Shown: positions 23,232-26,880 of the stretch, piece after piece
How positions within the stretch are numbered: the stretch's first letter is position 1
Layout of the letters: each line of letters starts with the position of its first letter
NCBI RefSeq assembly: GCF_014467015.1
Contig: NZ_CP058559.1
Location: forward strand, 2,480,001-2,544,000
Source: Alkalicella caledoniensis
GTDB lineage: Bacteria; Bacillota; Proteinivoracia; Proteinivoracales; Proteinivoracaceae
Reading direction: 5' to 3'
Length of the DNA: 64,000 nucleotides
The notes under the pieces: model-generated
Seen by the model: only the letters and a program-made list of their open reading frames with translations
What the model was told of the DNA's origin: nothing
Database searches by the model: none
Program-made: the position numbers and the translations under genes

Positions 23232-24260
23232 CTATATTTGACCCAGAAGGGTTTGCACCAAAAACGACACTACAACCACCAGAGTAGAAATTATAAAACC
23301 GTGTAAAAGTGGTGCAAAACCTGATTTTTTAAGCTTACTAAAATCTGTTCTAAGACCTATGGCCCCTAATGACATAACCATTAGGAATCTGCTTATATCT
23401 GATACAGATGAACTAAGGGGATCTGGGATTAGCCCTGTGCTTTTTACTGCCACTAATCCTAAAAACATTAAAATAAACCAAGGAAAGATCTTTTGAATGT
23501 TTACTTTTGTTTTCTTTGAAAGGGACGCTTCATTTATTTTTTTGTCTTTGCTGTTTAAACGCTCATTAATAAATGAAAAAGCCAAAACTACTGGGACAAT
23601 AGCCAAAGTCCTAGTAAGTTTAACTATCACAGCAAAGTTTCCTGCTGCATTAGAAAAAGCATAGCCTGCTGCAACCACCGATGAAGTATCATTCACAGCA
23701 GTCCCAGTCCAAAGCCCAAATCCTAAATCAGTCATGTTAAAATAAACTCCCATAAGTGGAAAAAGAACAACCATTAGTATATCAAATATAAAGGTTGCCG
23801 ATATGGCATAGGCAATATCACTGTCTTTAGCATTTATAACTGGTGCAACTGCTGCAATGGCAGAACCCCCACATATACCAGTTCCAGTAGATATAAGACC
23901 AGATAGTTTCCAATCCATTTTTAATAGCTTTCCAAATAAGTAACCGCCACCGTATGCAGTAATCAGTGTAAAAACCATAACAATGAGAGAGAACTTACCT
24001 ACCTCTAAAACCTGAGTGAAGCTCAGTGAAATCCCCATTAGTATTATAGCTAATCGTAATATTTTTTTTGATGTAAATCCAAAACCACTTTGTAAAAACT
24101 TGTACCTTTGGGTAATTGGACTTAAGAGCATACCTAAAAGCAGAGACAAAACTCCTGCTCCAATTATGTGCCAAGGCATAAGATTAGTTATGATAACGGA
24201 AAATGCAGCCAAAAATAAAGTGAAGGCTACTCCACCTATAATACCTCTAATATTAGACAT
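23232..24260 (-). CDS. YeiH-family putative sulfate/sulfonate exporter
   Basis: A 342-residue protein with about ten transmembrane helices. Family landmarks are KLSGLISTGTGICGGSAIAA (about 118-137) and GLWTGTAVNDTSSVVAAGYA. The end MSLGAIGLRTDFSKLKKSG is also typical of the UPF0324/YeiH group. Members are often under sulfur or cysteine control and are described as putative sulfate exporters. No experimental role can be assigned from sequence, and no cysteine genes are nearby. ATG with AGGGAG upstream. It is a monocistronic minus-strand gene sharing a terminator with the repeat cluster. Confidence 0.83.
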   Translation of the reverse strand: MSNIRGIIGGVAFTLFLAAFSVIITNLMPWHIIGAGVLSLLLGMLLSPITQRYKFLQSGFGFTSKKILRLAIILMGISLSFTQVLEVGKFSLIVMVFTLITAYGGGYLFGKLLKMDWKLSGLISTGTGICGGSAIAAVAPVINAKDSDIAYAISATFIFDILMVVLFPLMGVYFNMTDLGFGLWTGTAVNDTSSVVAAGYAFSNAAGNFAVIVKLTRTLAIVPVVLAFSFINERLNSKDKKINEASLSKKTKVNIQKIFPWFILMFLGLVAVKSTGLIPDPLSSSVSDISRFLMVMSLGAIGLRTDFSKLKKSGFAPLLHGFIISTLVVVVSFLVQTLLGQI

Positions 24261-25357: not shown

Positions 25358-25487
25358 AATAAAATTTATATGGGCATTAAACCCACTATAAAATATAGTA
25401 GTGATATAGTTGTCTTATTTTAAGTAGAGCAAATCTTATTGAACAATATAACCCCTTGTGATAAAATAACCTTATAATTTTCCAAAC

Positions 25488-25652
25488 GGAAAAAGGGAGT
25501 AGCTGTAGCCTTTATGGTTGCGGGTAGAGTCAACATACTGGTCCTAGGGGATCTGGTTTTACCCACTTTATTGTGCTAAAGGAGCGAGACTTTTACGTTT
25601 ATTAAGCTGGTGTTTACACCGGTTTATTAAACATAAAGGCCTCGCCCTTTTT
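25488..25652 (+). ncRNA. yybP-ykoY manganese riboswitch with expression-platform terminator
   Basis: The leader shows the motif's conserved pieces in order: AAAAAGGGAGTAGCT (25490-25504), a short hairpin, GTCAACATACTGGTC (25529-25543), a second stem, and GGAGCGAGACTTTTACG at the 3' side. The last part also forms the left arm of a long terminator hairpin (25581-25648, GCGAG...CTCGC) ending in CCCTTTTTGTTG. The gene behind it encodes a GDT1/MneA-type manganese exporter, the classic target of this class: Mn2+ binding should favour anti-termination and export. Boundaries are approximate. Confidence 0.85.
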
Positions 25653-25788: not shown

Positions 25789-26880
25789 ATGTACGAAATT
25801 ATCCAAGCTTTTCTACTTATCTTAATAGCTGAAATGGGTGACAAAACCCAAATTCTCGCTATGGCTTTTGCTACTAAATTTTCACTAGGCAAAGTACTTT
25901 TGGGTGTACTCATTGGCTCTGGATTAAATCATGGACTAGCTGCTATTTTAGGTACATATCTTACTAACATAGTCCCTATAGAGACCATAAGGATTATAGC
26001 TGCATTTGCATTTATTGGCTTTGGATTATGGTCATTAAAGATAGATGAGGATGATGAGGAAGGTGAAGAAGCAAGTTCAGCAAAATATGGTCCTGTTGCT
26101 ACGGTTGCTCTTGCCTTTTTCATGGGAGAAATGGGTGATAAAACTCAACTAACAGTAATCACATTGGCATCCCAGGCCAATTTGCCACTCTTTACTGTAT
26201 TTGGTTCCGTGGCAGGGATGGTTGTAGTAAGTAGTATCGGCGTGTTCGTGGGAAGCAGGTTAGGTAGAAAGATACCTGAGATTCCATTGAAGATCGCTGC
26301 TGCGGCTATTTTTATATTGTTTGGCTTAATGGGTTTAAACGAGTCTGTTCCAACACAATACAAAACTATTCCTCTAACAATAGTATTCCTTTCAGCCTTA
26401 GGGTTAGTTGTCACATGGATGTTAAATAACATTAGAAAAATAACTTCACCTCAAAATACACCTTACAAAAGGGCTGCCCATGATTTATACTTAAACACCC
26501 AAAGAGTACAATTAGCTCTAAAGAAAGTGACCGATACCAATAACCATAGCTTAAAGAATAAAGAGTTGGACTACACCATACAAACAATTATCAATAATCT
26601 AGAAAAAGCTCAAGAAAAAGAGGAATTTATCCCTAAGAATAGGTGGGATATACCACAATACAATGGTTTAAGGGTTAGTACAAAAGAACTAAAAGAAAGC
26701 CTGAAAGAAACAATGGAAACCTGCAGGGAGTGTCCAGCCCACAACGAAAACTGTGTATGTAATCAAACTAGAAGAGAGCTAGAAAAGATTTACTTAGGAA
26801 AAGAGGTTGAATATAAAGGCGATGTTCAAGAGTATTACAAGAAACTAAAAAAACAAGACCCTAATTTTGAGGATAAATAA
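25789..26880 (+). CDS. GDT1/UPF0016-family Mn2+ exporter with C-terminal cytosolic extension
   Basis: A 363-residue protein. Residues 1-~215 are the six-helix GDT1 (TMEM165) transporter with both duplicated metal-binding signatures: AEMGDKTQILAMAFATK (~13-29) and GEMGDKTQLTVITLASQ (~109-125), separated by an acidic loop (DEDDEEGEE). Family members export manganese or exchange Ca2+/Mn2+ for protons. The Mn2+ riboswitch upstream strongly supports manganese. A soluble extension of about 145 residues follows, predicted helical and ending with a cysteine cluster (CRECPAHNENCVC) that is not part of the usual ~200-residue family. It may bind metal, but that is inference. GAAAGGAG precedes the ATG. 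Confidence 0.9.
   Translation: MYEIIQAFLLILIAEMGDKTQILAMAFATKFSLGKVLLGVLIGSGLNHGLAAILGTYLTNIVPIETIRIIAAFAFIGFGLWSLKIDEDDEEGEEASSAKYGPVATVALAFFMGEMGDKTQLTVITLASQANLPLFTVFGSVAGMVVVSSIGVFVGSRLGRKIPEIPLKIAAAAIFILFGLMGLNESVPTQYKTIPLTIVFLSALGLVVTWMLNNIRKITSPQNTPYKRAAHDLYLNTQRVQLALKKVTDTNNHSLKNKELDYTIQTIINNLEKAQEKEEFIPKNRWDIPQYNGLRVSTKELKESLKETMETCRECPAHNENCVCNQTRRELEKIYLGKEVEYKGDVQEYYKKLKKQDPNFEDK

Follow-up and report, generated by a model that had tools for sequence, protein, structure and literature searches.

The closest described relatives of the gene discussed here are the bacterial Mn2+ exporters of the GDT1 family (UPF0016; Pfam PF01169), such as MneA. The gene lies in a 64,000-nucleotide stretch of the Alkalicella caledoniensis genome (contig NZ_CP058559.1, positions 2,480,001 to 2,544,000), referred to here as 'the window'. 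It shares with these exporters the two EMGDKT motifs, the membrane layout and a Mn2+ riboswitch-like leader, and differs from them in that its product carries about 148 additional residues. Soluble regulatory domains that contain Cys occur in other metal transporters (e.g. the copper P-type ATPases), and the window exporter would work alike if the added residues are regulatory; the likeness meant is one of function. The available text of the family review (PMC7380456) gives a riboswitch count of 328/333 for bacterial genes, and makes no mention of a Cys-rich tail; the terms 'cysteine' and 'C-terminal' each occur in it 0 times.

The closest relatives of the tail are members of a free, unnamed Cys-rich family (~150 aa). 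The full domain comprises 'site I', a cluster of Cys near the N-terminus, and 'site II', of the form C-x2-C-x2/3-H-x3-C. The tail of the window protein and the free proteins have in common ~128 aligned columns, site II and a later G...Y.G...Y pattern, but the free proteins are unfused and possess site I, whereas the window copy is joined to a membrane exporter and has lost that site. Small siroheme sulfite reductases (NIR_SIR; PF01077/PF03460), which we liken to the alSir and group I Dsr-LP types, are partner genes of the free family, and in one instance are fused to the domain; they form no part of the window gene.

The window gene and its leader

The features of the locus, all in window coordinates, are these:

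25482-25585, + strand: Mn2+ riboswitch-like aptamer (yybP-ykoY, RF00080; cmscan)
25578-25650, + strand: terminator-like hairpin, then a T run; likely expression platform (RNA folding; presumptive terminator)
25789-26880, + strand: whole ORF, 363 aa, predicted GDT1 exporter with C-terminal Cys-rich domain (translation, Pfam)
25789-26433, + strand: GDT1 part, residues 1-215 (Pfam GDT1, two stretches)
26368-26424, + strand: last hydrophobic segment, residues 194-212 (hydropathy)
26434-26880, + strand: tail, residues 216-363, with the homologous stretch from about residue 224 (hhalign, AlphaFold2)
26530-26574, + strand: place of the lost site I, residues 248-262, with T, S, N and Y for the Cys of relatives (columns C2-C5)
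26722-26760, + strand: retained site II, CRECPAHNENCVC, residues 312-324, with C312, C315, H318, C322 and an extra C324 (aligned columns)

The ORF has no internal stops. Pfam GDT1 matches its product as two repeats with 129.2 bits, where the cut-off is 27 (E 7.4e-38), and EMGDKT, which conforms to the family pattern E-x-G-D-K/R-S/T, occurs at residues 15 and 114. In a search of its own one-contig genome, this was the only GDT1 match. The protein belongs to the GDT1 family and is likely a Mn2+ exporter, an activity predicted from its sequence. A hydrophobic segment follows the six GDT1 helices in 37 of the 42 GDT1 proteins compared, including all 12 tailed ones. Given this segment, and because the acidic central loop of the family is placed in the cytosol in the available text of PMC7380456, the tail should be cytosolic too.

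The original prediction placed the gene under a Mn2+ riboswitch, and a riboswitch-like leader is present. RF00080 matches it over its full length (model positions 1-177) with 35.6 bits and an E-value of 3.3e-8 in cmscan, a score below the Rfam gathering score of 45; for this reason a scan of the window at default settings returned no hit, and we write 'riboswitch-like' throughout. Leaders of untailed GDT1 genes score 26.4-49.2 bits against the same model. The aptamer match precedes a putative Mn2+ gene and is followed by the terminator-like hairpin, which has a folding energy of -37.1 kcal/mol (z -7.16); 0/200 shuffled sequences were equally stable. A riboswitch was detected before two of 13 tailed GDT1 genes (that of the window and that of locus L003) versus 17 of 30 untailed ones, counts that ignore kinship and are subject to an E-value cut-off at which bit scores differ slightly between scans; weak leaders can be missed. 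The tail and the riboswitch are therefore not generally linked. On these same kinship-blind counts, control in the tailed lineages may have moved from RNA to protein.

The added tail

The tail was originally put at 'about 145 more' residues, and this was right: 148 residues lie beyond the GDT1 match in the window protein versus 1-25 in 30 untailed relatives, these having been picked as single two-repeat ORFs. The Cys-rich addition to the exporter is likewise real. All four Cys of the window protein fall inside CRECPAHNENCVC, and the site II columns C6, C7, H and C8 are all occupied. The protein had been described as 'ending in' this motif; the motif is there, but 39 residues before the stop rather than at the terminus. 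At site I, none of the four columns is Cys, and the window tail is for this reason better called a diverged homologue than a full member of the stand-alone family.

A frameshift artefact, or a one-off, was considered and rejected: 13 GDT1 genes, counting that of the window, have a tail, and the genome is a single contig. Between the window and L003 (a Clostridiaceae MAG), the tails are 49.6% identical and the GDT1 parts 67.5%, so the tail changes faster. Second codon positions in the tail change at 0.30 and third positions at 0.58; the frame is open, and both copies have a complete site II. That L003 shares the tail with protected second positions, and that stand-alone homologues exist, indicate that the tail is more than chance.

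An unnamed domain family

Sequence comparison establishes the window tail as a divergent version of a Cys-rich domain, ~130 residues long, that has no name. In A. caledoniensis itself, the full window protein has one further match, a distant free relative of the tail, 144 residues long, recovered with E 2.2e-6 when the whole protein was the query and with 3.7e-7 when the tail alone was used. Its gene immediately precedes one for a rubrerythrin. A1, the alignment used for wider searches, combined the window and L003 tails with four free proteins. As it contained the window's own tail, homology was retested without this circularity, using rows that had originally been gathered through A1. In hhalign, ten other GDT1 tails matched 20 free proteins with 99.66% probability (E 3.2e-25), and the window and L003 tails matched the same 20 with 98.62% (E 6.4e-16, 128 columns). 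The match is not due to Cys alone, because with every Cys masked the E-values were still 6.3e-20 and 8.3e-11, respectively. The real scores, 151.7 and 94.7, compare with maxima of 23.6 and 19.2 in 100 column permutations each, and with 17.3 and 11.5 for reversed profiles.

No curated Pfam or NCBIfam model accounts for these proteins. Among 32 members scanned with Pfam, none exceeded a curated cut-off (best E 0.0035); the best match, to PF19179, was in one of the 32, the window tail, with 17.5 bits against a cut-off of 26.9. Twenty members scanned with NCBIfam also yielded nothing above cut-off (best E 0.009, in one of 20). The sole PDB match in a sequence search with the free-family profile, an alcohol dehydrogenase, had an E-value of 0.051, and we take it to be chance. 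No relative of the domain was found on viral contigs, and among plasmid records the window tail matched one, from Acetoanaerobium noterae, and two stand-alone queries matched none. (The A. noterae record, L109, is 2.63 Mb long; it is filed among plasmids, and its size suggests a chromosome.) No description of the tail or of the free family was found in titles and the openings of abstracts, a literature that takes in few of the subscription journals.

AlphaFold2 models of residues 225-363, built on two sequences, depict the tail as a five-helix bundle (best model pLDDT 79.7, pTM 0.79), in which site II falls in the stretch linking helix 3 to helix 4. The five models range in pLDDT from 50.7 to 79.7, and those other than the best from 50.7 to 69.7; given this range, and the two sequences on which the models rest, the fold is provisional. 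The corresponding full-length model scores a pLDDT of 47.4, and its membrane part stays under 50. Foldseek with the tail model gave a best E of 1.6. VIA-align superposed it on a PduO-type structure (Z 9.6, rmsd 3.9, 114 aligned) and on a ferritin-like one (Z 8.3, rmsd 4.1, 103 aligned), values commonly seen between helical bundles. Models of viral structures contained no fold match to the tail at E <= 0.001.

Gene neighbours of the domain

With the A1 profile (E <= 0.001), the domain was found in 60 of the 398 genomes sampled from the phylum, and with an alignment of the ten other GDT1 tails, in 59. All 67 places found with A1, together with L003, make up 68 distinct ORFs, whose neighbours were identified by Pfam scans of representatives. 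Thirty-one adjoin the gene for a small, NIR_SIR-containing siroheme sulfite reductase, which usually stands immediately upstream; 14 adjoin a rubrerythrin; 12 are GDT1 tails; one is fused to a sulfite reductase (L052); and ten lie elsewhere, with neither enzyme within 1500 bases. Redox-enzyme neighbours thus accompany 45 of the 56 non-GDT1 ORFs, the fusion not being counted. One of the 31 ORFs on the sulfite reductase side, L061, is also some 1 kb from a rubrerythrin, and in L070 the neighbouring sulfite reductase is in pieces.

The association also shows from the side of the enzyme. Small sulfite reductases (E <= 1e-40) occupy 31 places in 30 of the 398 genomes, and at 30 of these the domain directly adjoins, the exception being genome G302. 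The association of domain and sulfite reductase is strong and, within the reach of our searches, has no name. No small sulfite reductase was found at this threshold in the A. caledoniensis genome, and neither queried enzyme, sulfite reductase or rubrerythrin, was found within 1500 bases of any of the 12 full-length GDT1 tails. The rubrerythrins beside the domain are open frames of 143-176 aa, and two that were scanned with Pfam had no rubredoxin match.

In L061 (2246-4450), genes for a rubrerythrin, an Rrf2-type regulator, a small sulfite reductase and a Cys-rich protein stand in a row on one strand. In L054 (2980-4995), the pair of sulfite reductase and Cys-rich protein occurs twice in tandem, and in L052 (3128-4366), one protein unites a sulfite-reductase-like part with the Cys-rich domain.

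Two Cys/His sites

Cys and His are the most conserved letters of the aligned family. Site II is whole in 14/14 rubrerythrin-side rows, 30/31 sulfite-reductase-side rows and 7/12 GDT1 tails. As for site I, on the sulfite reductase side three columns are Cys in 31/31 rows and the fourth in 22/31, the spacing there being variable; on the rubrerythrin side all columns are Cys in 13/14; and among GDT1 tails the site is whole in 9/12. The window tail keeps site II only (CRECPAHNENC), and five other GDT1 tails keep site I only. None of the 12 lacks both; each retains at least one whole site. A half-length tail in A. noterae also keeps site II (CRHCDIHDTNC). The sites are lost alternately and never together, which suggests that the Cys and His matter, and that the exporter needs only one centre.

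Spread and origin of the tailed exporters

The tail is not unique to this GDT1 gene: any GDT1 occurs in 178 of the 398 genomes, and tailed GDT1 in 11 (G000, G019, G027, G072, G143, G145, G172, G174, G244, G246 and G391). L003 and the A. noterae protein are two further examples. We constructed a tree from 42 GDT1 parts, 12 tailed and 30 untailed, leaving out L105 for its very long branch and L046 as a fragment. The 12 tailed rows and one untailed protein, L009 (G002), form a single group with support 96/93, in which two changes are needed; several branches are long, and the composition of L009 is odd. This tree is consistent with one fusion and one loss. L009 comes from the window's own family and lies within or beside the tailed group, which means that the tail is dispensable. 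In the tree of the domain, from which the fragment L078 was left out, the GDT1 tails need one change; this tree is poorly supported (68/75) and carries a warning for long branches, so the case for a single fusion rests on the GDT1 tree.

What the tail might do

With Cys and His as its most conserved residues, and with its stand-alone members beside redox enzymes, the domain plausibly has a metal or redox role. We judge a redox- or iron-responsive regulator the most likely reading, because the partners of the family are redox enzymes, and we rate its chances as about even: the tail would be a cytosolic thiolate-metal module, holding Zn or Fe-S, that regulates Mn2+ export by redox or iron state. 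The cytosolic C-terminus of the exporter would consist of a fused, Cys-rich helical domain that is otherwise a free protein encoded beside redox enzymes. The domain would bind one or two thiolate-ligated centres, either Zn2+ or an Fe-S cluster, and the tail, and with it the rate of export, would change according to whether such a centre is occupied and whether it is oxidised. Retention or release of Mn2+, in whichever direction, would thereby be tied to iron or redox state, with the leader setting the amount of exporter according to Mn2+, and the tail setting its activity according to another signal. Three findings count against this regulatory reading: the window tail lacks site I and changes faster than the GDT1 part, the untailed L009 shows that an exporter of this group can do without the tail, and the 12 full-length GDT1 tails are not near the queried redox enzymes.

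The original prediction was that the tail may sense metal or redox state and gate export. In kind this is plausible, given the conserved Cys/His and the redox neighbours, but direct sensing of Mn2+ is unlikely. Zn2+, Fe2+ and Fe-S clusters are favoured over Mn2+ by thiolate ligands, which makes CxxCxxHxxxC an improbable Mn2+ sensor; the domain keeps company with sulfite reductase and rubrerythrin rather than with Mn genes; and Mn2+ is already read by the leader. That the Cys-rich tail itself binds Mn2+ and gates export has in its favour that the protein probably exports Mn2+ and that the leader of its gene resembles a Mn2+ riboswitch. We consider it most improbable and have set it aside. The Cys/His sites may, alternatively, be purely structural zinc sites, site II binding Zn2+ to hold helices together in a tail that serves oligomerisation or stability and senses nothing. 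CxxCxxHxxxC is a common spacing for structural zinc, the tail is predicted to be a compact helical bundle, and tails persist after the loss of one site or the other; a plain scaffold alone, however, would not explain the redox enzymes beside so many of the non-GDT1 ORFs, and we regard this explanation as rather unlikely.

The free family might instead serve or escort the siroheme sulfite reductase and rubrerythrin through docking or electron transfer, the exporter copy recruiting such a partner to the membrane. The domain adjoins all but one of the small sulfite reductases and is joined to one in the L052 fusion; L061 unites rubrerythrin, Rrf2, sulfite reductase and domain; and the rubrerythrins, being short and, in the two scanned, without a rubredoxin match, would need an outside donor. 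Against this, gene neighbours are an association, not electron transfer, the window copy keeps a single site, and to our knowledge GDT1 antiporters need no electrons; recruitment of this kind seems to us quite doubtful. Decay of a once-useful fusion in the window's lineage would account for the missing site I, the faster change of the tail and the untailed relative L009, but is at odds with the open frame, the protected second codon positions (0.30 vs 0.58 for third) and the complete site II of the window and L003 tails, and is very unlikely. A broader proposal, also unlikely, is that in anaerobic Firmicutes the unnamed Cys4 + Cys3His family serves small siroheme sulfite reductases, and rubrerythrins that lack rubredoxin, as their dedicated redox partner, and was captured by a Mn2+ exporter. 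The family would then be an electron donor or a redox switch, and Mn2+ would be kept or expelled in response to sulfite, peroxide or iron-sulfur stress, one centre being enough.

Were the regulatory reading true, Mn2+ export in anaerobes would be linked directly, at the level of protein, to redox or iron-sulfur state, beside the known control by Mn2+ at the level of RNA. An unnamed family in 60 of 398 genomes sampled would gain a function and a set of testable partners, and the small siroheme sulfite reductase would gain a missing partner, adjoining at 30/31 places. The unnamed domain family is the more interesting part, more so than the exporter variant itself.

Other observations

Two genes upstream of the tailed GDT1 gene, on the opposite strand (window 23232-24260, -), lies a gene for a putative YeiH/UPF0324-like membrane protein. 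By eye, a counterpart occupies the same relative place in L043, L044 and L045, and lies three genes upstream in L047. In L046 (3281-4393; G391), the GDT1 part is split over two ORFs, and only the second bears the Cys-rich tail. Many GDT1 matches in the phylum sample fall in open frames no longer than 90-140 residues, suggestive of half-size proteins.
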